Origin: Chromatiaceae bacterium
GTDB lineage: Bacteria; Pseudomonadota; Gammaproteobacteria; Chromatiales; Chromatiaceae
Length of the DNA stretch: 33,098 bases
Direction: 5' to 3'
Assembly (NCBI GenBank): GCA_013426805.1
Contig: JACDZG010000085.1
Span: 1 to 33,098, forward strand
Positions 1-22,800 of this stretch are shown here, piece after piece (the stretch's first letter is position 1; every line of letters starts with the position of its first letter). The translations under genes and the position numbers were made by a program. Under the pieces are notes generated by a model. It saw only the letters and a list, made by a program, of their open reading frames with translations, did not search any database and was not told the DNA's origin.

Positions 1-35
1 TGTAGACGGGTACTGCTGTATTTTATGCTACCTCA

Positions 36-1175
36 TCAGTTTCGATCGCACCCGGCCTCGGCATCAAAGTGCAGCAAGGCATCCCAGATACCTTGCAGCA
101 GCGCCTCGAAGCTCATGCCTTGGAAGGCGGGCATCGATTTGCGCGGGGGCTTTGGGCCAGGCCCCGGCTCCGGCTTGTTCAGTGCCCGCTGCAGGGGCAT
201 GAAATCCACTCGCAACAGCCGCTCCCGCGCCACCGGATCGGCTGCTTCGATGAATGATTTGAGACAGCCCTGGTAGTCGTTCGTGTCGGCAAAGACGGCC
301 TGGCCGTCCGCGGCAACGGGCGGAACAAAGCCCGGCTCACTCAACGCTTTCTCGATTTTCTTCCAGTCTTTGTCTTGCCCGGCCTTGGTCTTGTAACCGG
401 CGTGCGAGATGAAAGCATCGGCCTCCTTGAGCGCCTTCACCGCCGCGCTGCCGTTCGGCACCCCGGTCGGCCCATCCGCGAGAAGCGGCGGAATGTCCCA
501 AAAGGGCAGCGCCTTGAAGCAGCGCTCGCGGAACTCGGCCAGGCTATAGCAATTGCCTTGATCGATCAGCGGCTGCAGAAAAGCCGCCAACTTGGCGAGC
601 CGCAGCGGACGCAACGCGAACAACTGCCGCAGCACCGCGTCGAAACGCTCCAACTCAGTCTCACTAGGACTTAAGCCCAACCGGGTCGCGATCCGCTGCA
701 GCCATGGCTGAAAGCTGCCTTTGAGCTGGCTGATCAGCCGGTGCTCATCGACCCGGTGGAAATCCGCCAAACCGCCTTGATCAGTCGCATGGTTAAAGCC
801 CACCAGTACGGTCACGAGGCCCTCTGCCCCCTCCGATTGAAGTGTGCGACCGCGATACCAGGTGAGTCGATCTTCCCGGTCTATCCAGTCGTGCTGCTCC
901 AGAGCTTCGATCGCGCCGGTCAGCGCCGGCGCACCCGCGGCATCGGTTCGCCAGGCATCCCACAAGCCTTTTGCGACCCGGAAATAACAAACCAGATTGA
1001 TCCGCCCCGACCAGTCCCGGCGGTGGGCCTCCAGTGCCTCGAACAGCGCGAGCGTTCCCACGGGGTCCAGGCTTTGGACGATGAATCTGGCCTCCTTGGG
1101 GCCATCCGGCGCATTCAGGGTACGGTCCCATTCGCCGGTCAGATACTCGGCCAGGGTCTCGATGAACAGGTTCAT
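36..1175 (-). CDS. DptH/SspH-like N-terminal region protein, last gene of PT island (tentative)
   Basis: A 379-residue protein. The start is the ATG at 1175, which overlaps the TGA of the Fic gene by four bases, as elsewhere in this operon; the frame is open further upstream, but that part lies inside the Fic gene. The middle holds a TWYRG segment and, about 35 residues later, DQGGLADFH. I associate this pattern with the N-terminal part of DptH-type restriction proteins, which normally continue into a long HerA/helicase-like motor; PglZ-like proteins are an alternative. No Walker motif is visible. The C-terminus has a proline-rich linker (residues about 340-352) followed by a short helix and two consecutive TGA codons. 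It may be a stand-alone subunit, with the motor encoded as a separate gene beyond the left edge, or a truncated gene. The role is inferred from position, so the family call is weak. Confidence 0.5.
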   Translation of the reverse strand: MNLFIETLAEYLTGEWDRTLNAPDGPKEARFIVQSLDPVGTLALFEALEAHRRDWSGRINLVCYFRVAKGLWDAWRTDAAGAPALTGAIEALEQHDWIDREDRLTWYRGRTLQSEGAEGLVTVLVGFNHATDQGGLADFHRVDEHRLISQLKGSFQPWLQRIATRLGLSPSETELERFDAVLRQLFALRPLRLAKLAAFLQPLIDQGNCYSLAEFRERCFKALPFWDIPPLLADGPTGVPNGSAAVKALKEADAFISHAGYKTKAGQDKDWKKIEKALSEPGFVPPVAADGQAVFADTNDYQGCLKSFIEAADPVARERLLRVDFMPLQRALNKPEPGPGPKPPRKSMPAFQGMSFEALLQGIWDALLHFDAEAGCDRN

Positions 1176-2311
1176 GGGGTCCGTTTCTCCTGTGGTCGTA
1201 AGGTCGCCAACCGTCGGCCGCCGGCCGTCCGGCGATAGCACTGACGGGGGCTGCGAGGATGATCCGGGTCGGTCATCGCCAGCCAGCCCCCGACGAGCGC
1301 GGGCCGCAGATAGTCGTAGAGGAAGGTCGGACGATGCGCCAGGCCGAGTCGGGCCATCAATTCCTTCGCGGGGCAGGTATCGTCCCCAAGCGCGGCCAGC
1401 AGTCGGCGAACTTGTTCGGTTACTTGTTCGGTACCTTGTTCGGTCGCGGCCTCCACAAAGGATTCATCGGGCGGCGCGGACGCCAATTCCGCCAGGGCCG
1501 CCCGGATCACACCCAGCATGAACTCGATGAAGGGTGTGGCACTGCCCGCCTCGGTGCTGTCCGCGATGGCCTGGTAATAGGCGCCCTGATGGGCGTGGAC
1601 CAGGGTTTCGATCGGCAGGTCCGCGAAGAGACCCCGCCAGCGACTCAAGATCAGCGTCTGCCACAGCCGGCCCATCCGACCGTTGCCGTCCGCGAAGGGG
1701 TGAATGAACTCCAGTTCGTAGTGAAAGACGCAACTGTTGATCAGCGCATGATCGGCGCTCCGACCGAGCCAGCGGAGCAGGTCCCTCATCAGCAGTGGCA
1801 CCCGGTCGGCAGGCGGCGCCATGTGGATGAGCGTCTCACCGGCCATGACCCCAACGCCGCCGCTACGGTAGGCGCCGGGGTCATCCACCAGAGCGGTCAT
1901 CAAGAGGCGGTGCGCCTCCAGCAGGTGGTCCTCGTCGCTGGGCGTCCAGGACTGGAAACGCTCATAGGCCAGGAGTGCGTTGCGCACTTCCTGTACCTCC
2001 CGGGGCGGAGCCAGCACCCGCTTGCCTTCCAGAATGGCCGTGATCTGTTCCTGCGTCAGCCGGTTACCCTCAATAGCCAGGGTGCCGTGAATCGTGCGGA
2101 TGCGATTGATGCGGCGCAGCCGCAGGAGCGTGGCACTGTCCGTGGCGGCCCTGACCTGGCCGATGCACTCGGAGATTTCCGCGACCAGCGTCAGGATGAG
2201 CGGAGACAGTGCAAAGGGCGGGCTGTACTCGGCGGCCACTATTGCCTGCCTCCGGGTCAGGTGCCGATGGGGGCTGTCCGCAGCGCCGCCGGAATTCGCG
2301 ATGACCGGCAT
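1172..2311 (-). CDS. Fic-family protein (probable AMP-transferase) with C-terminal winged helix
   Basis: A 379-residue Fic protein. The active-site motif HPFADGNGRMGR lies at about residues 204-215; in this family the His is the catalytic base and the GNGR loop holds ATP phosphates while AMP is moved to a target hydroxyl. An upstream TLAIEGN (residues 77-83) fits the S/T-xxx-E-G/N inhibitory motif of Fic proteins that restrain themselves with an N-terminal helix. The C-terminus (from about residue 300) looks like a DNA-binding winged helix, preceded by a TEQ repeat. I chose the ATG at 2311, four bases after the preceding stop. A GTG at 2239, just before the conserved YSPPF, is also possible, and longer starts overlap the preceding gene. 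It overlaps the next gene by four bases. Its place inside a phosphorothioation island suggests a regulatory or effector role; no target can be read from sequence. Confidence 0.9.
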   Translation of the reverse strand: MPVIANSGGAADSPHRHLTRRQAIVAAEYSPPFALSPLILTLVAEISECIGQVRAATDSATLLRLRRINRIRTIHGTLAIEGNRLTQEQITAILEGKRVLAPPREVQEVRNALLAYERFQSWTPSDEDHLLEAHRLLMTALVDDPGAYRSGGVGVMAGETLIHMAPPADRVPLLMRDLLRWLGRSADHALINSCVFHYELEFIHPFADGNGRMGRLWQTLILSRWRGLFADLPIETLVHAHQGAYYQAIADSTEAGSATPFIEFMLGVIRAALAELASAPPDESFVEAATEQGTEQVTEQVRRLLAALGDDTCPAKELMARLGLAHRPTFLYDYLRPALVGGWLAMTDPDHPRSPRQCYRRTAGGRRLATLRPQEKRTP

Positions 2312-2315
2312 TCCG

Positions 2316-3890
2316 TCATGCCTCGTCCTGCCGAGCGCCGGGATTGTGGACAATGGACACCGCATCGGAGAGTTCCACCAGGAAGCCCCCCTGCAGCAGT
2401 GTCTCCTCGATCCAGCGGGTATCCGCGGCGACGGCATAATCACGGCTGCCGCTCGCCGCACCGCCCCAGGCCAGTGCCACGGCCAATTGCCGGTCGCCCA
2501 GGGCGATGCCGTAATGGGCGAAGACGCGTGCATAGAACTCGGTCAAACGGATATGCTCGCCTGGCGTCAGCAAGGCGGCGACCAGGAAGCGCAGCAGGTG
2601 CGGCGGTAGGACGAAGCGCTGACCGGGGCCGGTGCGGGGGATGACGAGGCCCAGAGCCTTCGCGAGCCCTCTGAAGATCAGGAATCCATGCTTATCCGCT
2701 TCGGCTAGGCTTCCGCCGGCAGCAGCGGGGTCTGACTTTGCTCTCTTGCGTAGCACGCGGAACAGCAATTCCTCAATGTGCTCAAAGGATGTCTGCGCAA
2801 CCTTCCTGGTAGGCGTGCCTGGCGGCGAATCAGCGTTAGCAGTAATCCAGGCATAGCCGCCAATAAACCCGTCGGTGCTCGCTAGTGCCCCATCCTCCCG
2901 GACTGCCTGGAAGCAGAGAGTTCGCAACACCTGCATACAGCAAAGCGCCTGAAGTAAATTCAGTTTCTCTAGGTCGGCAAGTGTAGACAACGCGACATTC
3001 CGGATCTCGAACGCGAATAAATGCGCTTCAGCAAGCGTTGCTGTTGGCACCCAACCAAGCGGGGCACGCTTAGGGTTATCATAAAGTCGGAAAGCGCTTA
3101 GGCCGCCTTCCACGAAATGCGATAGCTGATTGAGGGGTCGGACCGCATCCTCAAGAACGCCGCGTAGCGAATCCTCAGTAACGGAACATAAAGTCGCTAG
3201 ACTTATCCCGCTCAGATGCGAATACAACTTGCCCCCTTCATGCGTTCTCAATGGCGTGTCATTGCACTGAAAAAGATGCGCCAATTGCAGAAACAGCAAC
3301 TCTCCGCCCCGCGCCATAAAGTTATGGCGGTCAGCCGCGAAGTACTGGCGCGCGTCACGCCATTGCGTCAAATGCGGGGGCTTCGGCACCTTTGAATGCA
3401 GCCAATCCAGCTCCCGCGCTAACAACCCGTACGATGCAGGAAGAAAGGTATAGGTCGCCCAGGTTCTGTTCTTAGCTACACCGACGAATCCGGCAAGCAG
3501 GCTTTGCAATAATCGAATAGCCTCGTCTTTGTCCGTTGCGGTTCCCTCGATCCGCTCAGCCAAGTCATCAAGCGCTTCGCGATAGGCGTTCTGGTGCGCT
3601 TCATGACGTGTGTCAAGTTTGGATGCGGCAAAGAACGCGAATAGCTTCAACGCAACACGATCCTCCGGCCAGTAAGTCGCCCTACCCATATCATCGCCGA
3701 TGGAGAAGGTGAACGAGTGTGCATTGCTATGTTCACCGGCCTGGCCCTTCGGCGAGGCAAAAACCAAAAGGAATTCGGCCAGATACTCGACCGGTGTTTG
3801 ATCCTTATAGAAGCGACGTCCGTACAACTGAATCGCCGGGTTGCTGGGCTCCCCGGTGCCGTCGATCGCGGGAAAACGCTCTGGCATCAT
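2316..3890 (-). CDS. 524-residue protein of PT restriction module (DptG/SspG-like by position)
   Basis: I do not recognise a catalytic motif. The protein is mostly helical with many aromatic and leucine residues. It starts at the ATG at 3890, overlapping the TGA of the SBD-ATPase gene (ATGA), so the two are probably translated together. In Dpt/Ssp restriction modules, a protein of about 450-550 residues without obvious enzyme motifs follows the DptF/SspF ATPase, so by position this is the G component; that is inference, not a sequence match. Its N-terminal two thirds (about 2650-3880) is visibly poorer in GC than the modification genes to its right, which suggests a separate origin for the restriction arm. 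It could equally be an unrelated partner of the ATPase. Confidence 0.7.
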   Translation of the reverse strand: MMPERFPAIDGTGEPSNPAIQLYGRRFYKDQTPVEYLAEFLLVFASPKGQAGEHSNAHSFTFSIGDDMGRATYWPEDRVALKLFAFFAASKLDTRHEAHQNAYREALDDLAERIEGTATDKDEAIRLLQSLLAGFVGVAKNRTWATYTFLPASYGLLARELDWLHSKVPKPPHLTQWRDARQYFAADRHNFMARGGELLFLQLAHLFQCNDTPLRTHEGGKLYSHLSGISLATLCSVTEDSLRGVLEDAVRPLNQLSHFVEGGLSAFRLYDNPKRAPLGWVPTATLAEAHLFAFEIRNVALSTLADLEKLNLLQALCCMQVLRTLCFQAVREDGALASTDGFIGGYAWITANADSPPGTPTRKVAQTSFEHIEELLFRVLRKRAKSDPAAAGGSLAEADKHGFLIFRGLAKALGLVIPRTGPGQRFVLPPHLLRFLVAALLTPGEHIRLTEFYARVFAHYGIALGDRQLAVALAWGGAASGSRDYAVAADTRWIEETLLQGGFLVELSDAVSIVHNPGARQDEA

Positions 3891-6229
3891 TCTCTCTCCA
3901 GTGTCTGTTCCTTCTCATCCAGAAAATAACGATAGACGGCCACTCCGCCATCGATGCCGGCGCGCAAGAAAGCGATGTCCCCTGAATGACCGACGGCATC
4001 CCTGGCAACCAACAGTTGCGCCGCGAACCGATCCAGTTGTGCCTGATGAATCGGCGACAGGCCATTGCCAAGCTCTCCGACATCGCGACGCCGGATGTAA
4101 TCCAGCAAGGGCAGAGACAGCACCAGCGCAACCGAGCCGCTGCGATAGCGCAGCTTGGGCAGTCCCGCCATCGGGTCAAAGAGCAGATCGAACTCCTGAA
4201 AAGGCAGGCTGGCGATGATGAGTTGGGTCGGTTGCACCACGGCGCGATCCGGCCGGCGCAGGGTGAGATAGAGATGATCGTGTCGATCCTCGAACTGACC
4301 GGCGCTGAAACCGGAGTACGCTTCAAGCAGTACATTCAGGCAGGCGCTACGCAAGCGCTTGGTCTCGGCGCGCGACAACGTGAAAGCCCCCGCCCGCTGC
4401 CAGGCGTCCAGTTCGCGCAGGCTCGGAGAACGCAGCATCGCATCCAAGAACACTTCAGCCTGATCGACGGCATCCGGCCGCGGGCTACCGAAGATCAAGG
4501 CCATCCGCCGCAGCGCGGCGCGTGTCGGCAGCGCCTCCGGGGCCGCGGCCCGTTTGCACCATAGCTCCCCAAAATGGTGGAGGGCATCGGGTAACCGCGC
4601 CCAACCGCCGCCGGGGTCGTCGATAAAGCGTCGCTCGAAGTCGGCGCCGACCGGTCCGCCGATCAGACTGCGGCGCAACAGTGCGATGGCCTGAAGCGCG
4701 TTCGACTCTGGCCGGAGTGCCCCCGCGCAGTAGCCGAAGAAGCCCTCGCTGAACAGGATCTCTTGCAGCGCCGCGGTGCCCCGATCGGCCCCAATGGCCG
4801 TCGATGCCTCCACCCGCGCCTGCGCTTCAGCGCAGCCCATGCCGCCGGTGAGGCCGTAAGCCAGTTGGGCGACGATCTGCCGCAGCGTTAGCCGTTGTTC
4901 GTAGTCATTGATGCGGCGATAGATCCAACGCACCCGCTCTTCCACGACCGGGGCCGCCTCGGCCAGGGCGCGACGATTCAAGGCCAGCGGACAGGCCATT
5001 TCGACCGGGCAGCCGGCGCAGTGTTGCCACCCGGTATGTTGCACGAGCCGGGTCAGTATCCGTGCGCCAAGCGCGACATTGTCGAGTCTGGTGAGATTGA
5101 GGATCAGGAGCGGCTTGTTGAATCCAGCCAGGACGTGGCTTTCCAAAGCGTCTTCATTGATCGGCCGATTCAGCAGCGAGAGAAGCTTGCTCTCCACACC
5201 CTCCAGCCCTAACGCGTCGGCGTATTTCGTCAGGCTATCCAGCAATGGACCGGTGTTGCTGATGATGAGCCAACTGCCCGCTTGCTTGATGGCTTGGTCG
5301 AGCCACTGCTGACGGGCATCCGCGCTCAGCTCGCTCATGTCCTTCACGATGGTGACCGCGCCGTGCTGCTCCCGCTCTTTGAACGGCGCGCGCAACGGCT
5401 CAGTCGCGGGAATGCCCTGCAGGGTCTTGAGAACATCGAGAGCGACAGTCGACTTGCCGTCACCCGCATGCCCGGTGAGAATAACAATCCGTTCGGTCCC
5501 GTCGACGAGCAGCGACTTGATTCGCCCCGCGAGCGGGAAGGGTTCGTAGAGGTCCCCGAAATACCGGCTCAAAGCTTGGGATTCTGCGAGTGCATTTGCG
5601 CCACCCGCGGTCAGATTGTGTAGAGAATTCAGGTAGGCTATAAAATCGTTCTCGCGCACAGTCATAATTTTGCTTCCCTTTTCGTCGGAACGTTCACCCT
5701 CTTCATCCATAATCGCGTCTCCGAGCCAGTGCGAACGTTTCTCGCTTCTAAAGTCAGGTGTTGGCGGCAGCAACCCCACCGCATTAAGCACCTCACGGAT
5801 CATCCACTCGGGGAAGTACTTCCGCGCCAAGGCGACGGCAACTGACCGAGCTTTAATCTTATCTCCTGCCAAAAGGCTGAAAACGTCAACAGAAAATCCC
5901 GCATGAATGTTCTGGCCTATCAGCTCGGTCCGGTACAGGTGACCGACCGATGTCCGACGTAAGCTACTGCTTTGCTCGACCTCCCAGATGCCATCGTTTT
6001 CCAGTTTACCGAAAGGATAATGCGTATTTGACCGAGTCGATGCCTGTGGGGAAAATTGTTTCAAGAGCCGATCCAGTGCGACATCGATATCTTTATAGGC
6101 GATCAATCGTTGGTCAAAATTAATCAGCTTCCCAATTGCGTACAGCAAGAGCAGCGGCTTGTGAAGCGAGGGATTTCCATTTTCCTGATAAACGCGGGCA
6201 TTGAGTAATCGCTCTTCGATATCTGCCAT
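3887..6229 (-). CDS. PT-DNA sulfur-binding-domain-like (SBD) fused to P-loop ATPase (DptF/SspF-like)
   Basis: A 780-residue protein in two parts. Residues 1-155 resemble the sulfur-binding domain of phosphorothioate-dependent McrA-type endonucleases: HKPLLLLYAIGKL near residue 23, HYPFGKLENDGIWEV at 70-84, GGF-like AGFSVD near 110, then a KYFPEWMIREVLNAVGL ending. In that family the conserved Tyr-Pro region packs against the sulfur of PT DNA. After a charged linker comes a P-loop, GHAGDGKS, at 253-260, typical of DptF-like proteins. A CxxCxxxxxC cluster (sequence QHCAGCPVEMACP) in the middle may bind metal or an Fe-S cluster. No nuclease motif is seen, so it is more likely a sensor or motor than the cutting enzyme. 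It starts 10 bases after the PAPS-reductase-like gene and overlaps the next gene by four bases. The domain call is from memory of the family pattern, not a search. Confidence 0.8.
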   Translation of the reverse strand: MADIEERLLNARVYQENGNPSLHKPLLLLYAIGKLINFDQRLIAYKDIDVALDRLLKQFSPQASTRSNTHYPFGKLENDGIWEVEQSSSLRRTSVGHLYRTELIGQNIHAGFSVDVFSLLAGDKIKARSVAVALARKYFPEWMIREVLNAVGLLPPTPDFRSEKRSHWLGDAIMDEEGERSDEKGSKIMTVRENDFIAYLNSLHNLTAGGANALAESQALSRYFGDLYEPFPLAGRIKSLLVDGTERIVILTGHAGDGKSTVALDVLKTLQGIPATEPLRAPFKEREQHGAVTIVKDMSELSADARQQWLDQAIKQAGSWLIISNTGPLLDSLTKYADALGLEGVESKLLSLLNRPINEDALESHVLAGFNKPLLILNLTRLDNVALGARILTRLVQHTGWQHCAGCPVEMACPLALNRRALAEAAPVVEERVRWIYRRINDYEQRLTLRQIVAQLAYGLTGGMGCAEAQARVEASTAIGADRGTAALQEILFSEGFFGYCAGALRPESNALQAIALLRRSLIGGPVGADFERRFIDDPGGGWARLPDALHHFGELWCKRAAAPEALPTRAALRRMALIFGSPRPDAVDQAEVFLDAMLRSPSLRELDAWQRAGAFTLSRAETKRLRSACLNVLLEAYSGFSAGQFEDRHDHLYLTLRRPDRAVVQPTQLIIASLPFQEFDLLFDPMAGLPKLRYRSGSVALVLSLPLLDYIRRRDVGELGNGLSPIHQAQLDRFAAQLLVARDAVGHSGDIAFLRAGIDGGVAVYRYFLDEKEQTLERE

Positions 6230-6239
6230 GGCCGCGATC

Positions 6240-7031
6240 TCACTTCATGCATATCAAACAGGCATCGTCAGCGCCATCGCCGTCTGAGAACAACGCGTCC
6301 ATAAGTTTCTTCGGCGGCGACACTTTCGTCGGCCTTCCGCGATTATTTTCGGCCCGCTTTATTACTTCGTCTAGTGGACCAGCCTGATTCCAGGTAAAGA
6401 GACGGCCGGTTTTTTCATCAATGCGTTCGTATGCTTTTGCCGCTTTGAAGAGTTCAGGGTGGTGCTCTTTTAAACCAGCCCATTCTTGCTGCTGCTGGAA
6501 GAAGCAGAAATAGCAACCTGATCGACTGCGCCATTTGTAATAACGAGGCACACCGATTCCCGATTCTTCCAGAATTGCGAAGACATCTTCTTTGGTGATT
6601 CCATCTTCGCGAAACGGCATCCGAGTAGTGATGTTTGGCTTGGTTGAAACATACCCAGAACGCGAGGGCTCATCGGCCCGAATCGCGATGTAGGAAACTG
6701 CTTGATCTTCGCCTACGAATGACTCAAAAGGAACGAGCTTCAAGTTCACGGTGCACCAACGTTGGCGTGCCGATGGCAAAAAATTGTTGTGATATTTAAG
6801 GTAATAATCAAAGTCTCTTTCGGCGTTCAGCCGTACGATAGTTTTTCCCAAATAGTCTTGCAATAAATCAATGTACTCTAAAGTCTCCGGAAGCTCAGCC
6901 CCCGTATCCGCAAAGAAATACTCCATCTCCGGCACCCGATCGCGCAGATAGATCGCCAATGCAGAGCTGTCTTTCCCCCCGGATAATCCCAGCAGGTGAC
7001 GCACCGGCGTGGTTGGTGTGGTTTCACTCAT
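6240..7031 (-). CDS. sspD: PAPS-reductase-family ATP pyrophosphatase (SspD/DndC-like)
   Basis: A 263-residue protein that probably adenylates or activates the DNA backbone so that sulfur can be inserted. The PP-loop SGGKDS lies at residues 17-22. Four cysteines, C93 (in RWCTVNLK), C173 and C176 (SGCYFC), with C258 and C261 near the C-terminus, fit the Fe-S cluster cysteines of DndC-like proteins; one of the five is spare. The ADTGAELPET segment is the usual PAPS-reductase strand 2. I start it at the ATG at 7031, which overlaps the TGA of the preceding gene; the open frame continues upstream but lies inside that gene and is rich in Arg, Pro and Gly like a shadow. It is shorter than typical DndC. 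Base composition is lower in GC than in the genes before it. BREX type 4 BrxP is the nearest alternative name. Confidence 0.87.
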   Translation of the reverse strand: MSETTPTTPVRHLLGLSGGKDSSALAIYLRDRVPEMEYFFADTGAELPETLEYIDLLQDYLGKTIVRLNAERDFDYYLKYHNNFLPSARQRWCTVNLKLVPFESFVGEDQAVSYIAIRADEPSRSGYVSTKPNITTRMPFREDGITKEDVFAILEESGIGVPRYYKWRSRSGCYFCFFQQQQEWAGLKEHHPELFKAAKAYERIDEKTGRLFTWNQAGPLDEVIKRAENNRGRPTKVSPPKKLMDALFSDGDGADDACLICMK

Positions 7032-7792
7032 GACGGTTGGTCTCCGAGGGTTGCCACTGGGGCAAGGCGCCTCAACAGCGCGGCGACCACGGCGATTTGG
7101 GTGGCGTCGTCGAGGCTGTGCAGTTCGCCGGCGATACGGTCCGCGGCGCGATCCGCCGCTTGTCGCTGGCCGGGGGTGAGCCGGATCACCCGACTGATGT
7201 CCGCCTGGGCACTTTCCACCAGCTTGACGAGCACGGCGGCGTCGCCGTTGAGGCCCGCCGCGCGGGCCTCCGGGAGGACGTGACAGAGTTGCTCGAGCTC
7301 CCGCAGTTGGGTGGCCAGTTCGCGGACGCGCAGTTCCGCATAGACCCGGTGGGATTCTCGCCACTTGGCCGGCGGGGCATTGCCCAGCAGGGTCATGACG
7401 GACTCCAGCCAGGCCTGCGCGGTTTCGAAATGGGTATCGGACAGGCGGCGGATGAAGGCGCCGACCGTGCCCTGTTGCGGGGCGTAACGGTCCAGTCCGT
7501 GGTAGCGCCGAGCCAGCGCGGCGCGCAGTCCGTCGAGGTCCCCGCTCGGACCGTCGAGCAGGTGCTGCCCCAGCTGCGCCTGCCAGTGCGTCAGCAGCTG
7601 CGGGTAGGCGCCGCTCAACTCACGCAGCACCATGATGAGGCGGCTGATGAACTGCTCGACGGCAGCGGCGTCGTCGCCGCTGAAGGCCGCGGGCTCGATG
7701 CCGCAGGCGCGCGGCAGGGCATCGAACAGCAGGTGTCCAGGGCGTTTGGCCTGGCGGAAGGCGGCGCGCACCCGCTCGGCCTCGGGGCTCAA
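7028..7792 (-). CDS. Unrecognised 254-residue helical protein between SspC-like and SspD-like genes
   Basis: No family is recognised. The protein is mostly helical and rich in Ala, Leu, Arg and Gln, with no signal peptide, membrane segment or catalytic motif. Its start is the TTG at 7792, because no ATG lies near and the TTG overlaps the TGA of the large ATPase gene (TTGA), mirroring the ATGA overlaps elsewhere in the operon. It ends by overlapping the ATG of the SspD-like gene. The coupling on both sides suggests that it works in the modification complex, perhaps as a detached C-terminal part of the ATPase or an adaptor between ATPase and pyrophosphatase. That is inference from position only. 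Confidence 0.75.
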   Translation of the reverse strand: MSPEAERVRAAFRQAKRPGHLLFDALPRACGIEPAAFSGDDAAAVEQFISRLIMVLRELSGAYPQLLTHWQAQLGQHLLDGPSGDLDGLRAALARRYHGLDRYAPQQGTVGAFIRRLSDTHFETAQAWLESVMTLLGNAPPAKWRESHRVYAELRVRELATQLRELEQLCHVLPEARAAGLNGDAAVLVKLVESAQADISRVIRLTPGQRQAADRAADRIAGELHSLDDATQIAVVAALLRRLAPVATLGDQPS

Positions 7793-10461
7793 GCCAACGC
7801 AGTGGTGGCTATATCAGGCAGGGCACCGGCAAAGCGTACCAGTGGCCGGACGATATCGAGCAGGGTGGCATCATCGCGCAGGTTGCCGACGATGGATCCG
7901 AGATAGCGCTGGAACAGGTCGCCGCGCAACCCGACGAGGGTGAAACGCTCCAGGGCAAACAGCGCCGGACGGCGGCACAGGAGCTCGGCCTGCTCGATGG
8001 TGAGTGTTTCGCAGAAGGCGCCTTCCTGGTAAAGGGCGACTTCCCGACGATTGGCAAGCAGGTAGGTCACAACCAGGATGGGCAGGACGCCGAGCCGCAC
8101 TCCGAAGGGTGGAGCTTGCAGGCGTTGATAGAGTGTCGGCAGGGACACCTGCTGCTCGCCACCGCTGCCCAGAGTGTCGCCGATGACTTGCCAGACCGGG
8201 CGCAACGCGCAGGGATCGGCGGGCGGCGGGGAAAAGAAGTCCCAGTGCCCGTGGGCGCCCGCGCGGTGCAGACCGCTGGCGTGGAGTAGCGAGAGATACA
8301 GGCTCTTTTCGGCGGGGGCCTTCGCGATCCCCAGTCCCTCCCGTTCCGGGGTCTTGAGCATGGCCGCCAGCAGCCTATTGCGGCCGGTGTTGGCGGCAGC
8401 GGATGGTTTCTCGCGATTGATCAGTTCGTTGCGAATCCGCGGCGCCTTGGGGAAGCAGTGCTCCGCAACCCATTGGGACAGTGCGCGTTGCAGATCGCGC
8501 CGGTCATGGATGGCGCGTCGCTCGCCGCCAAAGTACCAAATCAGCGCCTCCGGGGCCTCCAGCAGGGACCGCATGGCGCTGAGCGCCTCGGTTTCGGCAT
8601 TGGCGAGCCAGGCTTGGTGCTCACGCTGCGCAACGGGGTCTTGCTGTAAGGCCGCGTGCCGCTTAGGGAGATCCTGCAGGGCCATCCATTCGGACACCAC
8701 TTCCAGCAGGCGCTCGGAGAAGCGGCAGACGGCCACTACCGCCCGCGCCTGCGCCTTGGTGAGATCAGGGTGTTCCGCGGGCTCCGCCAGGTAGATCCAC
8801 AGGGGCAGTTCGGCCTCCTGGGTCTTGGGGGGCCAGCGTTCCTGGGACACGAAGACCGGCTCGAAACGACGCAGGGTACCCGTGTCAATGGACACCCGGC
8901 GGGCCACCAGGGGCGCCAGCGGCATGAGCGCATTCAGCGTGTCGGCCAACGGCTTGCCGGCCTGCTCGGCGGCGGCTTGTGCCAGGGCGCCGTGGAGATC
9001 GAAGTCGCTGCCGGCCCAGACGCGATATTCCTGGGCGTAGCCCCGGAAGTGGATAATCGACGCGGCTTTGAGCGCCGTCAGGTGCGCATCCAACGTCTCA
9101 CCGAACAGCAGCCGCAAGAGGGCGCCTGAGGCTTTGAGGCCGCGCTGGGCACCGATCAGGTTGAAGAGGCCGATGGTCTTAAGCAGACGGGCGCCCGGGT
9201 CCGAACTGCCGCCGCTGGTGTCGCCGTCATAGCGCTCCAGTGCGGTGATGACCTCGACCCAGCGGCGATAAGTCAGCGGATCAGCAAAGCCGCCGGCCTG
9301 GTTGAGGACAAAGTAATCATAGAGTTCCCAGGGGTCGATCCAGTCACCCATCGCCAACTCGTCAAGGCGACGACGCAGGCCAAAGGGTTCGGTGCTGCCG
9401 AGATAGGAGAACAGGGTGCGCTCGTTTTGGGCGACCCGCTGACACAGAATCGGCAGGATGAGGAGCGTGACGGGGTGCAGCGGGTAGCACGCTTGGAAGA
9501 GGTCGGTTGCGCGTGCCAGGTCGATCCCGCCAGGCAGCGCGGTTTGCTCGGCGAGTTCGGCGGCGGTCTCGAAAAGCTCGCTCGCGACCTCCGTCGACAG
9601 TTCACCCTCGCATGCGAACGAGGCGGCCGCCACCCGTAGCGTCTGTTCCGCCGGTTCCAGGAAGGCGATGGCGGCGAAGCGCCCCTGTACCTTTTTCCAT
9701 TCGTCGCGCAGGCTCTTGCCCAGGCGGTTGCTGTAGTGCTCGAAGGCTTGGTGCAACATCACGAGCAGCACCAGTGGTACCGGTCCGGCGGCGCCGGCCT
9801 GCTCGGCGAGCACCTGCAGCAGATGAACCTCGCGGTGCTGCGGGTTGACGGCCTCGTACTCCAGAAACTTGCCCAGCTCATCGATCTCGATGAGAACACC
9901 GGTGCCGCCCGCGTGGCTCCAAGCGGATTGCACCTGGGCGACGAGTTGGAGCACCAAGTCCATACGCACGCCGGGCCGGGCATTGGTCCGTATGCGCTCG
10001 ACCAAAGCAGGCTCCAGGGCGGCCTGCGCGGCGGCCGTACCCAAGGCCAGCAGGACTTGGCGTGCCAGCGAGTCGGGAATGCCGTTGATCTGGACACGCA
10101 GCATGCCCGCCGTGTGGTCGAGGGCGTCACGCACCCGTTGCGCCAAGGCGGGCGCGAACCGTTGCAGGGTCGCAATGGCGCTCTGGTGGGGCTGGCCGCT
10201 GGGGGCGGATAGCAGGGCGCCGGCAAAAAGGCCGAAAGCGGACTTGCCCGCGCCATAGGGGCCGATCAGGGCCAGGGCACGACCGACAGATCCCGGTGTC
10301 AGGGCGCCGATCAACTGCTCCAGGGCGGCGATGGCGCGCGAGGTGGGCACATAGGTGCGCAGCAGTTCGACCGAGTCTTGGTCACGGACCAGGTTGATGG
10401 AGCGGCTGAACCCGGCGCGGATGCGGATGGACGCCGACAGCGGCGTGCGCGGATTGGTCAT
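7789..10461 (-). CDS. sspC: Large P-loop ATPase of PT modification complex (SspC-like)
   Basis: An 890-residue ATPase. The Walker A motif GPYGAGKS lies at about residues 66-73, and the Walker B-like strand VLIEIDELGKFLE near residue 190 supplies the acidic pair. The remainder is a long helical region with winged-helix-like stretches, in the manner of BrxC/SspC ATPases that load or move the modification complex on DNA. I start it at the ATG at 10461, overlapping the TGA of the DUF4007 gene; a TTG 15 bases upstream (10476) is less likely. It ends by overlapping the next gene. Assignment to SspC rests on the order cysteine desulfurase, DUF4007, ATPase, PAPS-reductase-like protein, which is the Ssp arrangement; the ATPase sequence alone would also suit a BREX-like protein. 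Confidence 0.82.
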   Translation of the reverse strand: MTNPRTPLSASIRIRAGFSRSINLVRDQDSVELLRTYVPTSRAIAALEQLIGALTPGSVGRALALIGPYGAGKSAFGLFAGALLSAPSGQPHQSAIATLQRFAPALAQRVRDALDHTAGMLRVQINGIPDSLARQVLLALGTAAAQAALEPALVERIRTNARPGVRMDLVLQLVAQVQSAWSHAGGTGVLIEIDELGKFLEYEAVNPQHREVHLLQVLAEQAGAAGPVPLVLLVMLHQAFEHYSNRLGKSLRDEWKKVQGRFAAIAFLEPAEQTLRVAAASFACEGELSTEVASELFETAAELAEQTALPGGIDLARATDLFQACYPLHPVTLLILPILCQRVAQNERTLFSYLGSTEPFGLRRRLDELAMGDWIDPWELYDYFVLNQAGGFADPLTYRRWVEVITALERYDGDTSGGSSDPGARLLKTIGLFNLIGAQRGLKASGALLRLLFGETLDAHLTALKAASIIHFRGYAQEYRVWAGSDFDLHGALAQAAAEQAGKPLADTLNALMPLAPLVARRVSIDTGTLRRFEPVFVSQERWPPKTQEAELPLWIYLAEPAEHPDLTKAQARAVVAVCRFSERLLEVVSEWMALQDLPKRHAALQQDPVAQREHQAWLANAETEALSAMRSLLEAPEALIWYFGGERRAIHDRRDLQRALSQWVAEHCFPKAPRIRNELINREKPSAAANTGRNRLLAAMLKTPEREGLGIAKAPAEKSLYLSLLHASGLHRAGAHGHWDFFSPPPADPCALRPVWQVIGDTLGSGGEQQVSLPTLYQRLQAPPFGVRLGVLPILVVTYLLANRREVALYQEGAFCETLTIEQAELLCRRPALFALERFTLVGLRGDLFQRYLGSIVGNLRDDATLLDIVRPLVRFAGALPDIATTALA

Positions 10462-11372
10462 GCCGCCGCCCCGCAATAGTAACCGCGCAGCGTCCCGAGC
10501 GGATCGGCGAAGCGCTCCCCGCGGTAGATCTGATGCACACCCGCGGTGTCGCGCAGTTCGTAGTGGCCCGGCCAGCGCGCCATGACTTGGGTCAGGGCGG
10601 CCATCAGCCCCTCTTCGCTCAACCGGAACGCGGCTCCGGGAGCAGCGCGCTCGTCACCGCCGTACAGAACGAGGCGCACCGGCAGCGCGGGCTGTTCGGG
10701 CGCGTCCGCGAAGCACTCCGCCAGCGCAAAATGCAGGGCGACGGGGGGCAGGAAGGGACGGGCGGCCCGCGGGCTGCGATAGGTCTTGATCCTGGCTTTG
10801 GCGTCGCCGTCGATCTCGATCAAGCGCAGCTGCGCCAGCGGGCTATCGAGGTGGTCTTCGTCTTTGTCCGCGACAGGAGCGTACATGCGCAGGAGCGTGG
10901 AGACATCGGATTTGAGAGTGCTCTGGGCGCGCTCGATCTGCAGCTCCGCGGCAGTGAATTCAGTCATGCCGGCGCGGACCTGCTCCTCCTGAAAGCGGGG
11001 CATGGCATAGCGATTGAAAAACCAAAAAAATCCCGTCGCCAGATGGGCATTGGAGACCAGGAGCCAGTGCAGTATCCAGAGTGTAGCCTCGTCCTCCAGG
11101 TAGGGGTCGCCATCGTCGCCGAGCAACAGCTCGCCGAGCGCGGTGGGCTTGCCCTGGCCATCGGCGAACTCGACCAGACGCGCCGCCTGCAACCAGTAGT
11201 GAATGGCGCTGACCATGTTACGTCCCACCCCCAGCACGACCATGGCCAGATCCGGCTCATTGAAGATGTCCGGCTGGTCGAGGACCGCATCGAACCCCTT
11301 GGTAAGCCAAGCGTAGCGTAACGGAAAGGTTTCGTGGCGGCCGAAGGCCGTTTGTTTTGGGTCGAGCTTCAT
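10458..11372 (-). CDS. sspB: DUF4007 protein (SspB-like, DNA-nicking component of ssDNA phosphorothioation)
   Basis: A 304-residue protein with a clear DUF4007 pattern at the N-terminus: FGRHETFPLRY at about residues 10-20, WLTKGFD soon after, LGVGRNMVSAIHYW at 47-60, then a helical C-terminal half. DUF4007 proteins sit beside DndC-like genes in Ssp systems, where SspB is reported to nick DNA as part of single-strand phosphorothioation. I see no classical nuclease triad, so the nicking role is carried over from the family. The ATG at 11372 directly abuts the TAA of the cysteine desulfurase gene with no spacer, and the stop overlaps the ATPase start by four bases. No odd codon use or truncation is visible. 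Confidence 0.88.
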   Translation of the reverse strand: MKLDPKQTAFGRHETFPLRYAWLTKGFDAVLDQPDIFNEPDLAMVVLGVGRNMVSAIHYWLQAARLVEFADGQGKPTALGELLLGDDGDPYLEDEATLWILHWLLVSNAHLATGFFWFFNRYAMPRFQEEQVRAGMTEFTAAELQIERAQSTLKSDVSTLLRMYAPVADKDEDHLDSPLAQLRLIEIDGDAKARIKTYRSPRAARPFLPPVALHFALAECFADAPEQPALPVRLVLYGGDERAAPGAAFRLSEEGLMAALTQVMARWPGHYELRDTAGVHQIYRGERFADPLGTLRGYYCGAAA

Positions 11373-12539
11373 TTAGGCGTCCAGTTCCTGCATCCGTTGA
11401 ACGGCGGTGATGACGGCGTTGACGAGCACTGCAATGTCGTCCACGGTGTGCGCGCGATCGAAACTCACACGCACCGCGCCGTAGAGGGCGTCGCCCGTGA
11501 TCCCCATGGCCCGGAGCACCCGCGACGGCTCCAGGGTGCCGGCGGAGCACGCGGCGCCTGAGGCGATGGCGACCGCGGTTGCCGTTTGGTTGATGAGTGC
11601 ATCGCTCCTGATCCCTGGGACGGCGAAATTCAAAATGTAGGGTGAGGTCCGGTCGGGGGCACCATGGATGTGCAGATCGAGCCTGGCACTGAGTTGCTCA
11701 ATGCATTGTGCCTTGAGGAAGGCAACATGCTCAAGGTCTGCTTGGCGGCGCTGCGCGGCCAGCGTCAGCGCTTTCGCCAACCCGATGATTTGGTGGGTAG
11801 GGAGTGTACCTGGCCGCAGGCCGAACTCTTGTCCGCCGCCGAAGGTCAGCGGGCGCAGGCGCAACCGCGGCCGGTCGCGGATCACCAGGCAGCCGACCCC
11901 CTTGGGTCCGTGGAACTTGTGCGCGGAGAGCGACAACAGGTCGACCGGGACCTCGCCCAGGTCGATGCGGAATTTCCCGGCGGCTTGCGCGGCGTCCACA
12001 TGTAACAACACGCCCTGCTCCGCGGCGATCGCCGCGATAGCGTCGATAGGCTGCATCGCCCCGGTTTCATTGTTGGTGTGCATGACGGATAGCAGGAGGG
12101 TGTCCGGCCGCAGAGCCTGCGCAACGCGGTCCGCGGCAACCACGCCGTCGCCGCCCGGTGACAGGTAGGTGACCTCGAAACCAAGCGCCTCCAAGTGGGC
12201 ACAACAGGCCAGGGTCGCCTGGTGCTCGATGCGGGTGGTGACGAGGTGTCGCCCCTGGTCCGCATGGGCCAGGGCGATCCCCTGCAGCGCCAGGTTGATG
12301 CTCTCGGTCGCCCCGGAGGTGAAGACAACTTCGTCCGCCACACAGCCAAGCTCCGCGGCGACGGCGGCGCGCGCCTGGGCGACCGCCCGCGACGCCTGCT
12401 GCCCGAAGCCGTGGGCCGACGCGGGGTTGGCGAAGCGGTGCACCGCCGTGAGGGCGTCGACCATGACGGCCACTACCTCGGGATCGACTTGGGTCGTCGC
12501 CGCGGTGTCGAAGTAGATGGGCGTGTCGGGCCGGTCCAT
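11373..12539 (-). CDS. sspA: Cysteine desulfurase, sulfur donor for PT modification (SspA/DndA-like)
   Basis: A 388-residue PLP-dependent class V aminotransferase fold of IscS/NifS type, which takes sulfur from L-cysteine as an enzyme persulfide. PLP residues fit: H106 (RIEHQ), D182 (HVDAAQAAGK), and Schiff-base lysine K208 in SAHKFHGPKG. The sulfur-carrying cysteine is C331 in SGAACSAG. Length is normal. The start at 12539 is preceded by GAGGA about 7 bases away, the best ribosome-binding site in the operon, and it is the first gene. Being first in a phosphorothioation operon, it is more likely dedicated to DNA sulfuration than to general Fe-S assembly, and no iscU or iscA lies near. The gene name is by context; dndA or iscS-like would be equally fair from sequence alone. 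Confidence 0.92.
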   Translation of the reverse strand: MDRPDTPIYFDTAATTQVDPEVVAVMVDALTAVHRFANPASAHGFGQQASRAVAQARAAVAAELGCVADEVVFTSGATESINLALQGIALAHADQGRHLVTTRIEHQATLACCAHLEALGFEVTYLSPGGDGVVAADRVAQALRPDTLLLSVMHTNNETGAMQPIDAIAAIAAEQGVLLHVDAAQAAGKFRIDLGEVPVDLLSLSAHKFHGPKGVGCLVIRDRPRLRLRPLTFGGGQEFGLRPGTLPTHQIIGLAKALTLAAQRRQADLEHVAFLKAQCIEQLSARLDLHIHGAPDRTSPYILNFAVPGIRSDALINQTATAVAIASGAACSAGTLEPSRVLRAMGITGDALYGAVRVSFDRAHTVDDIAVLVNAVITAVQRMQELDA

Positions 12540-12777: not shown

Positions 12778-13902
12778 ATGCGCTGCAAACTTCCCATCGG
12801 CATCCAAACGTTCTCGCTGATCCGCGAGGAAGGCCATTGCTATGTGGATAAGACGCCGCTGGTGGCGCGCATGGCGGCGGAAGGAAAATACTATTTTTTG
12901 TCGCGCCCGCGACGCTTCGGCAAGAGCCTGCTGGTCTCGACCTTGGCGGAGGCCTTCGCCGGTCACCGCGCGCTCTTCGAGGGGCTCTATCTGGCCGATC
13001 ATTGGGACTGGGAGCGCCGCTCGCCGGTGATTCGGATCGATCTCGGCCAGGGCGTGGTCAGAAGCCGGGAGGATCTCGAACGACGCCTGATGCGCAATCT
13101 TGGACTCCTGGCAGAGACCCACGATCATACCCTCAGCGCCCGGACCCCGGACGAGGCCCTGGAAGAACTGGTCTTGTTCATGCATCACACCACCGGCGAA
13201 CGCGTCGTGGTGCTGGTGGACGAATACGACAAGCCGATCCTGGACAACCTGCACGATCCGGCGCAGGCTCGACTGATCCGTGATGCCCTGCGCTCGCTGT
13301 ACTCGGTGATCAAGATTCAGGACGCACACCTGCGCTTTGGCTTCCTGACCGGGGTCAGCAAGTTCTCCAAGGTGTCGCTGTTTTCCGGACTCAACAATCT
13401 CATCGACATCACGCTCGATCCGCGCTACGCCACCTTGTGCGGCTACACGCAGCAGGAATTGCAGAGCGTCTTTGCGGAACTGGGTCTCTATGACGCCCTG
13501 GAAGCGGACGACCCTGCCGCCCTGGAACGCCTGTTTCACGCCTTCTTTGCCGCCATCCCCCACGACTGGTACCGCAACAACCAACTGGCGGGTTACGAGG
13601 GCTACTACGCGTCAGTGGTTTACTGCTATTTCGCGGCGCTGGGCATTGACCTGATCGCTGAAGACGCCACCAACCACGGGCGGATCGATCTCACCGTGCG
13701 CCATCGTGGCCGGGTGTGGCTGATCGAGTTCAAGGTCAACGAAATGACCCGGCCGGGACGTGCGCTCGACCAGCTCAAGGCGCGCGACTATGCCGCCAAG
13801 TATGCGGGCAGCCCGGTCACGCTGATCGGTATCGAATTCAGCCGCGAGTCACGCAATTTGAGCCGCTTCGAGTGGGAGCGGCTGACGCCCGCGCCCGGCT
13901 GA
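12778..13902 (+). CDS. AAA-ATPase-like/PD-(D/E)XK nuclease protein (DUF1703 type), internally shortened
   Basis: A 374-residue member of the family pairing an AAA-ATPase-like domain with a C-terminal PD-(D/E)XK nuclease domain. The N-terminal signature LPIGIQTF, Walker A-like RPRRFGKS (about 43-50), Walker B-like VLVDEYDKP (about 145-153) and the TGVSKFSKVSLFSGLNN sensor stretch are present. The nuclease core is GRIDL near 302 followed by LIEFKV near 317. Members are usually about 510 residues. Here the protein passes from GYTQQELQSVF directly to the ALERLFHAFFAAIPHDWYRNN segment, so roughly 130-140 residues of the ATPase lid are missing without a frame change. Function is unknown; such genes are common, multicopy and often decayed in purple sulfur bacteria. 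It points away from the PT operon. Confidence 0.85.
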   Translation: MRCKLPIGIQTFSLIREEGHCYVDKTPLVARMAAEGKYYFLSRPRRFGKSLLVSTLAEAFAGHRALFEGLYLADHWDWERRSPVIRIDLGQGVVRSREDLERRLMRNLGLLAETHDHTLSARTPDEALEELVLFMHHTTGERVVVLVDEYDKPILDNLHDPAQARLIRDALRSLYSVIKIQDAHLRFGFLTGVSKFSKVSLFSGLNNLIDITLDPRYATLCGYTQQELQSVFAELGLYDALEADDPAALERLFHAFFAAIPHDWYRNNQLAGYEGYYASVVYCYFAALGIDLIAEDATNHGRIDLTVRHRGRVWLIEFKVNEMTRPGRALDQLKARDYAAKYAGSPVTLIGIEFSRESRNLSRFEWERLTPAPG

Positions 13903-13915
13903 GGTCCGCGCGCGG

Positions 13916-14463
13916 TCAAACCACCGCCACCCAATCGGCTTGCGTCAGGTTGCGCGCTTGGGGGTCGAACACCAGTCCAACCTCAAACAAGCCCTTGTTC
14001 GGCAGACCGCGGTACTTGGCACTGTAGCCGCGGGCCTGGATTTGGACCAGGGCCGGATTGTCGCCCGCCTGAGTCAACACGGGCACGGTCACGTCGCCCG
14101 GGCGCGGCGCGATCCCGGACGGCACCGGCCCAGCGTGGCCGCGGTGCAGCTTGATCTCGATGACATAGATGTAGTCGACCAGTTTGATGGTCCGGCTTGG
14201 AACAGCAGCGTCACCGGATCGATCCGTTCAAGGTCGAATGAGTCGAGGATTTCCTCGCTGGCTTCAAGGCCTTCCAACTCGGGCAGGAAGGTGCCGCGGC
14301 ACTGCACCGAGACGGTTCGCATTCTCACGCAACAGCCGCCCGATACGCAGACCCAGCGCGGCACGTGTCTGCACCACGCCACCGGAAAAATCGAATCGGT
14401 GATGATCTCACCGAACGTCTGGATACCGATCGGGAGTTTCTTCAGGGTTGGATTCATAGCCAC
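13916..14463 (-). pseudogene. Decayed AAA-ATPase/PD-(D/E)XK gene (second copy, opposite strand)
   Basis: Three pieces of the same family as the neighbour at 12778 appear on the minus strand. One frame starting at 14463 gives the family N-terminus KKLPIGIQTFGEI, then later SFDLERIDPVTLLFQAG, a piece from the middle of the ATPase. Around 14190-14130 another frame gives VDYIYVIEIKL, the E-x-K core of the nuclease domain, and continues to a C-terminal stretch (ARGYSAKYRGLPNKGLFEVGLVF) ending at 13916. Most of the ATPase is gone and the frame shifts at least once. It faces the neighbour tail to tail. Confidence 0.8.
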
Positions 14464-18156: not shown

Positions 18157-18245
18157 CGGACCCTACGGTGACACCGTGACCTGTAGGGTCCGCTGTGCGG
18201 ACCGACGACCGTGCAGATCGCGCGGTGACCGGGTTTATGATCAAG
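18118..18245 (+). repeat. Palindromic mobile-like element, copy A
   Basis: About 128 bases begin with TTGATCATCGTTCCGGCC and end with GGGTTTATGATCAAG, so the outer 9 bases are inverted repeats. The core (18146-18203) is a long palindrome, GGTCCGCATAGCGGACCC facing GGGTCCGCTGTGCGGACC with a short loop. Copies B (22672) and C (32761) match over the full length and in the same orientation. No gene lies inside, so it resembles a MITE or a REP-type element moved by another gene's transposase. Confidence 0.85.
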
Positions 18246-22671: not shown

Positions 22672-22800
22672 CTTGATCATCGTTCCGGCCAGCCGGGGAC
22701 GGTCCGCACAGCGGACCCTACGGTAACACCGTGACCTGTAGGGTCCGCTGTGCGGACCGACGACCGTGCCGATCGCACGGTGGCCGGGTTTGTGACCAAG
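22672..22800 (+). repeat. Palindromic mobile-like element, copy B
   Basis: The same element as at 18118, starting CTTGATCATCGTTCCGGCC, with the core GGTCCGCACAGCGGACCC / GGGTCCGCTGTGCGGACC. The right end is slightly degenerate (GTGACCAAG instead of ATGATCAAG). Confidence 0.85.

Follow-up and report, generated by a model that had tools for sequence, protein, structure and literature searches.

A divergent SspABCD–SspFGH-type phosphorothioation operon with a sulfur-binding domain joined to SspF in a Chromatiaceae genome

The window analysed here, 33,098 nucleotides of DNA from a Chromatiaceae bacterium (GenBank assembly GCA_013426805.1, contig JACDZG010000085.1), is one whole contig, C48, of a draft genome of 7.6 Mb in 349 contigs. 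Between positions 12539 and 36 it holds nine minus-strand open reading frames (ORFs), all present where a first-pass annotation had placed them, and the nearly continuous overlap of starts and stops described there runs through the entire unit, with neighbouring ORFs overlapping or lying no more than 10 bp apart. On profile searches of the window proteins with PADLOC, Pfam and the NF045808 and TIGR03235 models, the cluster looks like an anti-phage system that marks its own DNA with sulfur, as phosphorothioate (PT), and attacks DNA that lacks the mark. It is a variant of a known PT defence, with a sulfur-binding domain (SBD) built into the attacking machine. The gene order in the source genome is A, B, C (broken), D, SBD-F, G, Fic, H (split), B2 and C2, the last two lying beyond the window. 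ATGA overlaps join SspB to SspC (with ATG 10461 taken as the start), the end of SspC to SspD, SspF to SspG and Fic to SspH; SspA and SspB abut, and gaps of 10 bp and 4 bp separate D from F and G from Fic. The G+C content falls to 0.487 at window 6001–7000, around sspD and the start of sspF, and ranges from 0.551 to 0.711 in the other 1-kb steps.

The first genes of the operon are those of DNA modification. SspA (388 aa; 11373..12539) is a cysteine desulfurase that matches PADLOC SspA at 448 bits, DndA at 431 bits and TIGR03235 at 400 bits, below the cut-off of 480 for the last. SspB (304 aa; 10458..11372) is a DUF4007 protein (Pfam DUF4007 250 bits; PADLOC SspB 248 bits), and SspD (263 aa from ATG 7031; 6240..7031) resembles PAPS reductases and ATP pyrophosphatases (PADLOC SspD 348 bits; Pfam PAPS_reduct 33 bits). 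The DUF4007 and PAPS-reductase-like proteins, on whose place in the Ssp families the first-pass annotation had staked its reading, belong there, and the four proteins that it had recognised as a cysteine desulfurase, a DUF4007 protein, an ATPase and a PAPS-reductase-like protein are SspA, SspB, SspC and SspD, respectively, all in one operon, with SspC spread over two frames. Its N-terminal part, an 895-aa ORF (7789..10476; likely start ATG 10461), matches PADLOC SspC at 1020 bits over positions 1–883 of 1054, and a 254-aa ORF in another frame (7028..7792) picks up the same profile exactly where the longer ORF ends, at positions 888–1054 (147 bits). The shorter ORF, earlier set apart as an unknown protein, is thus the SspC C-terminus, on the strength of that profile match and of the relatives, which read through the same region in a single frame, for example LPDYSQHCAGLSLNAERVR in Chromatium weissei (locus L040). 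Read by eye, the window has LPD at the break and then continues in the other frame with YSHHCVGLSPEAERVR. The SspC C-terminus forms an ORF of its own in none of the related loci examined; a count of SspC by ORFs of at least 1,000 aa cannot by itself exclude a split sspC at other loci. As the assembly reads, sspC is out of frame, through mutation or assembly error.

The fifth gene encodes SspF, a 780-aa protein (3887..6229) in which an SBD (residues 1–150) precedes a P-loop core (about 190–780), as indicated by NF045808, PADLOC SspF, PDB 5zmo and the predicted fold; the SBD-like ATPase fusion proposed earlier is therefore real and is an SBD joined to SspF. Residues 3–153 match NF045808 at 87 bits, under a cut-off of 180 that is set for the whole SBD-HNH protein. 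Among solved structures, the SBD finds that of ScoMcrA (PDB 5zmo) with an E-value of 2e-11, and the SspF profile finds SBDHga1 (8h0l) at 5e-17. The predicted model of the whole protein has a mean pLDDT of 86.7, and its match to 5zmo_A has a probability of 1.0 and, by target length, a TM-score of 0.78; the predicted fold was also compared with 7ccj and 8h0l. The sulfur pocket of ScoMcrA is formed by H116, R117 (lysine in most homologs), Y164, P165 and A168 (PMC6224610; published work is cited throughout from the available portions of the papers). The window protein has H23, K24, Y71, P72 and K75 at these positions, and so combines the SBD fold with the residues expected at H116, R/K117, Y164 and P165.

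The relatives used for comparison are 79 loci, found with an SspF alignment and representing the best 80 of 119 confirmed places; they were drawn via two peptide patterns, NALAESQA and TGHAGDGK, which makes them an uneven sample of SspF. Of the 51 N-terminal extensions in the SBD alignment, 49 come from the loci whose extension exceeds 100 aa, all of which were taken; the other two are the extension of the window and the stand-alone SBD ORF of L040. L060, with its SBD in a split ORF, lies outside it. Position 24 is lysine in 42 of 43 ungapped rows and arginine in the remaining one, position 23 is histidine in 38 of 43 and position 72 is proline in 44 of 48, and position 71 is variable, with tyrosine in 21 of 44 SBD rows. 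Ranked by conservation among the 148 SBD columns, K24 comes first, P72 fourth, H23 eighth and Y71 only 42nd. The SBD profile behind the 79-locus tally was built from 40 rows that were selected for having K24 and W82, and the ranks of these two positions are partly circular for that reason; the counts in the 51-row alignment, and the tally of NF045808, which matches 41 of the 51 extensions, are free of this selection. Two SBD-SspF proteins from methanotroph metagenome-assembled genomes (L048 43–2394 and L054 5893–8253) lack the pocket histidine and proline and offer a natural test of the importance of the pocket. At another locus (L039 3707–5086, genome G249), a 459-aa protein fuses an SBD to an SspB-like DUF4007 domain near SspD- and SspC-like genes. 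The source genome itself has a second PT locus on a contig of its own (L125 4983–8677, contig C255), with DndC at 610 bits, a DndB-like protein at 89 bits and an adjacent SBD-HNH nuclease.

Behind the SBD, the SspF core matches PADLOC SspF at 85 bits over residues 245–474. By our reading of the predicted model, and as far as that model goes, it is consistent with the published description of DndF, which has a four-helix lead, a Walker A motif, an asparagine in Walker B, a large helical lid, a cysteine cluster and a C-terminal alpha+beta part. The 524-residue protein that follows (2316..3890), correctly noted before and taken for an extra part, is SspG (PADLOC SspG 57 bits); its best solved fold is DndG (7exx; E 0.11, probability 0.85), and the SspG profile yields a single chance match among PDB sequences (E 0.76). 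The C-terminal translocase of SspH is nearest to DndH, at 190 bits. A possible relation to the DndFGH superfamily is suggested by a weak fold match for G (E 0.11), by these 190 bits for H and, for the core of F, by the description and the model. With the PADLOC models, the window F, G and H reach 85, 57 and at most 84 bits, whereas the canonical loci L037 and L038, from the same class, give about 750 bits for F, about 670 bits for G and 2,400–2,580 bits for H. Scores so far apart make the window F-G-H a distant sister subfamily. Its genes are laid out as in an SspFGH module, with a co-directed F bearing Walker A, a G and an H with an FtsK-like C-terminus beside sspBCD, H being continued on another contig.

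The DptH-like fragment at the end of the window is of the DptH/DndH type, as first described, but it is no gene end: an insertion sequence cuts sspH after its first 374 codons (54..1175, from ATG 1175, within a 401-aa ORF), which rules out reading the fragment as a finished gene. This ORF matches the SspH model weakly (12.8 bits) and shares 40–53% identity with SspH N-termini from the nearest loci (L041–L060 and L113, where present), whose complete proteins measure 1,764–1,928 aa. Positions 1..53 are an end of the element, which recurs at contig ends, and 54..62 are a 9-bp target duplication repeated at L016:55–63. The remainder of sspH, about 1,463 codons, lies on contig C312 (L016:55–4455) and is followed by B2; the right end of C312 and the left end of contig C144 share an exact 55-bp overlap, and C144 opens with C2. 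The unit therefore runs past the window edge and beyond the nine genes first counted, and two of the supposed extra parts come from the breaking of sspC and sspH into pieces. A pattern for both element ends has 24 matches in the genome, 12 of each of two types, one of them, on C52, with a different inner sequence; the reversed control pattern has none. Read outward, ten of the 12 first-type ends each share an exact 9-bp duplication with one, and only one, second-type end, and no such pairing occurs at 8 or 10 bp; C48 and C312 form one of these pairs. The assembly is broken by an insertion sequence of some 12 copies with 9-bp target duplications. No transposase could be assigned to it, the interior of the element lying outside the contigs examined.

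B2 (291 aa) matches DUF4007 at 21 bits, below the cut-off of 27. When profiles are compared, that of B2 (30 sequences) aligns with that of SspB (26 sequences) over 258 columns with a probability of 98.3% and an E-value of 2e-14. C2, about 1,490 aa, is SspC-like: a relative in genome G199 matches SspC at 55 bits, and the source copy is 45% identical to that relative. Among the 68 loci with room to show it, B2 comes after H in 58 (the ten without are L047, L052, L059, L065–L067, L069, L100, L104 and L109), and C2 follows B2 in 54 of 54. This conserved pair suggests that the working unit in this branch has five genes, not three. At the canonical loci L037 and L038, no SBD match occurs in the 20 kb examined at each, and neither B2 nor C2 appears in the approximately 1.3–1.4 kb of these that extends past sspH. 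The sequence itself shows which genes these are, that the SBD has its pocket residues, that F-G-H-B2-C2 is a conserved order, and that sspH carries an insertion and sspC, as assembled, a change of frame. A short GC-rich repeat lies between B2 and C2 in two copies (L016 5317–5371 and L129 1–141); searching the genome with 92 bases around it gives 45 matches, of which two fall in the window, at 18177–18210 and 22732–22765.

The operon also contains, as first annotated, a Fic gene (1172..2311), whose product of 379 aa from ATG 2311 matches Pfam Fic at 74 bits and Fic-like_C at 87 bits. It carries HPFADGNGRMGR and TLAIEGN, which we take to be a complete active-site motif and an inhibitory motif of the class-II type. 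The gene is a local insertion and no core part of the operon, for none of 70 related loci with both genes in view has a Fic gene between G and H; a search of the 79 loci with the 379-aa protein gave four matches (L088, L099, L105 and L114), none at the G-H joint. A gap of more than 150 bp separates G from H in only two of the 70 loci, L056 (1,547 bp) and L113 (293 bp). In Thiothrix lacustris (L056 14087–15558), the joint where the window has Fic holds a toxin gene of the AbiEii type together with an ORF of 214 aa; with Fic in one genome and the AbiEii-type gene in the other, the joint has taken in toxin–antitoxin-like cargo at least twice. On the other side of the operon, the window has an AAA-ATPase_like/PDDEXK_9 gene (12778–13902), followed on the minus strand by a stretch (13916–14463) that by eye resembles the remnant of a second copy.

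An SBD is fused to SspF, or stands just before it, in 45 of the 79 loci as well as in the window. By architecture, 33 loci have SBD-SspF, 10 have SBD-kinase-SspF, 5 have kinase-SspF without an SBD (one of these, L090, may be truncated, as it begins where its contig ends), 1 has another extension and 30 have no such extension, including L040 and L060, where the SBD is in a neighbouring ORF. NERD and protein-kinase domains of the MAD6/PglW kind occur in 15 of the 51 extensions (for example L061, L062, L064, L068 and L071), with or without an SBD. On a tree of 80 SspF cores made by a quick method, the SBD label needs 8 changes, 5 of them forced by well-supported branches. Where at least 4 kb upstream could be seen, ssp modification genes lie upstream on the same strand in 34 of 34 rows with an SBD, as opposed to 16 of 31 others (Fisher p 1.4e-6). 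For SspF loci without nearby ssp genes, no modification partner emerged from tallies for 57 ORFs, most of them chosen from 94 listed, that covered 25 of 60 families. Beyond the sampled loci, 8 of 368 other genomes of the window's class match the SBD-SspF query at E 1e-5, most through one of the two domains only; in its family, an SspF relative occurs in 5 of 95 other genomes, and one further genome matches the SBD alone; and the two genomes of the same genus show neither. The fusion was found in no phage record, and the 8 plasmid records that matched all covered less than 80% of the query. In Chromatium weissei, the SBD and SspF are separate ORFs (at 10001 and 10572 of L040); sspH, at first thought lost there, is a 1,787-aa frame elsewhere in the genome, apparently about 54 kb off on the other strand.

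Taken together, these features make it fairly probable, in our judgement, that the cluster is a PT restriction operon in which the SBD turns SspF into a reader of the self mark that holds the complex back, with help from B2 and C2, and of which this copy is probably inactive. SspA, SspB, SspC and SspD would sulfur-modify the DNA backbone of their own cell; SspF, SspG and SspH, with the SspB-like B2 and the SspC-like ATPase C2, would form a DNA-translocating complex that damages unmarked DNA; and the SBD at the N-terminus of SspF would read the mark and, when bound to sulfur, keep F-G-H idle on self DNA. SspF is the most likely reader because its N-terminus carries a ScoMcrA-type SBD. In the characterised system, SspFGH damages unmarked DNA, F, G and H are each needed, and FGH without PT is toxic (PMC8092258). 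Binding of the Ssp mark by the SBD, restraint rather than triggering, and a role of B2-C2 as loader or scanner are what we infer for the window proteins.

The state of the source copy bears on a second account, compatible with the others. Each of F, G and H is essential in Vibrio anguillarum FF-93, and here sspH is split by the insertion sequence, so the restriction arm is probably dead; with sspC out of frame, the modification arm may be damaged too, and the operon copy in the source genome is probably inactive. Loss of sspC would be bearable because sspH is split, since an intact F-G-H would attack the cell if the mark disappeared first; the attack arm may accordingly have been lost before the mark. 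Alternatively, only the restriction arm has gone and SspABCD still marks DNA as a working orphan, an account to which we give somewhat less than an even chance: homology to sspC is intact on either side of the frame change, and sspBCD without sspFGH or sspE is the commonest state (2,211 of 2,678; PMC8092258), but sspC is broken in the assembly.

Several observations weigh against SspF as a restraining reader of the self mark. The F, G and H of the window match only parts of their models and none over its full length. The association of SBD and modification genes shrinks, when corrected for descent, to 4 independent pairs, of which about 1 agrees and 3 are silent; this is not significant, so that descent may explain it. 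SspF without an SBD adjoins ssp genes in 16 of 31 rows, and an SBD is consequently not required in every such system. The pocket histidine and proline are lost in two SBDs (L048 and L054). SBDs that read the known Ssp mark, C(PS)CA, are expected to carry some residue in place of tyrosine at position 164 (PMC6224610), and with a tyrosine there the window SBD may not fit that core; the SBD of ScoMcrA recognises G(PS)GCC but does not bind any of four other natural cores (PMC7470945). An error of assembly could also explain the change of frame in sspC. In addition, the domains that precede DndF are variable, include winged helix-turn-helix (wHTH), NERD and tandem kinase domains and are interpreted as co-effectors (PMC10853773). 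By extension, the SBD on SspF might be an accessory co-effector or a generic wHTH with no part in reading PT, and discrimination would reside in SspG, B2 or elsewhere. The SspF proteins without an SBD beside SspBCD, including L045, close to the window, are in keeping with this, as is genome G406 of the same family, which has an SspF and no SBD match at E 1e-10. We nonetheless regard it as unlikely, given that the pocket residues rank with the best-conserved positions of the SBD (partly circularly for K24), a conservation for which a generic wHTH would have no need. Less probable still is activation by PT sensing, in which the SBD bound to the self mark would switch F-G-H on and so license attack. 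Self PT has such a stimulating effect on SspE, with which SspABCD is otherwise partnered (PMC9646914), and the 34 of 34 co-location fits this too, but the characterised SspFGH, of the canonical subfamily, is toxic without PT and restrained by it (PMC8092258), and the two canonical loci examined have no SBD match.

The natural fusions of a structurally understood sulfur reader to SspF bear on how SspFGH and DndFGH complexes distinguish marked from unmarked DNA. Discrimination has been related to the sequence and density of PT (PMC8092258), and DndG has been suggested as the discriminator (PMC10853773); SBD-SspF fusions name a subunit, a pocket and loss-of-binding mutations that make the matter directly testable. 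More tentatively, the related loci may represent a widespread, unnamed class of PT defence made of SspABCD and (SBD)-F-G-H-B2-C2, in which the SBD on F would read the mark, the SspB-SspC paralogues would load or scan, and in some phyla a NERD-kinase block would stand between reader and motor. Were this so, mark reading, signalling and attack would be united in one chain, SBD-NERD-kinase-SspF.

The fusion was partly foreseen, as N-terminal domains on DndF are in print with the wHTH unspecified (PMC10853773). The same paper describes the SBD as a wHTH where it occurs with HNH, and relates DndG to SspB; its main text has neither 'SspFGH' nor 'DUF4007'. In a literature search that left aside preprints and most subscription papers, no paper with both 'SspF' and 'SBD' as whole words was found, nor any account of the domain on SspF as a sulfur reader, of its link to ssp genes or of the B2-C2 pair. 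The first-pass annotation was right that the layout is neither SspABCD-SspE nor DndABCDE-FGH, and SspE (DUF262-DUF1524) has no match at E 0.1 among the nine proteins, to which that search was confined; the layout is, however, not undescribed, but that of SspABCD-SspFGH (PMC8092258), in a divergent subfamily with extra parts.

As in SspABCD-SspFGH of V. anguillarum FF-93, the ssp genes adjoin co-directed F, G and H, with Walker A in F and an FtsK/HerA-type C-terminus in H (PMC8092258). Unlike that system, the one in the window has a remote F, G and H subfamily by PADLOC, an SBD on F, B2 and C2, a Fic gene, an H nearest DndH and broken H and C. BREX type 4 and BREX-related capture systems share with it a PAPS reductase, DUF4007, a BrxC/SspC-like ATPase and HerA/FtsK, and DUF4007 is described there as a BrxA-like triple HTH and SspC equated with BrxC (PMC12839542); in contrast to BREX type 4, the window has SspFGH-type genes and no PglZ or BrxL match among its nine proteins, and its SspD scores 348 bits as SspD as opposed to 39 as BrxP. 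The F-G-H genes recall DndFGH (PMC10853773) in a core that, as far as the model goes, fits DndF, in the N-terminal additions and in the weak SspG-DndG fold match, but are coupled to SspABCD rather than DndABCDE, carry as N-terminal domain an SBD with a sulfur pocket, and are followed by B2 and C2. Finally, the SBD itself is like those of ScoMcrA, SprMcrA and Hga in fold and in the pocket residues H, K, Y and P; whereas those accompany an HNH nuclease, that of the window is joined to the P-loop NTPase of a translocase complex and sits beside PT-making genes.

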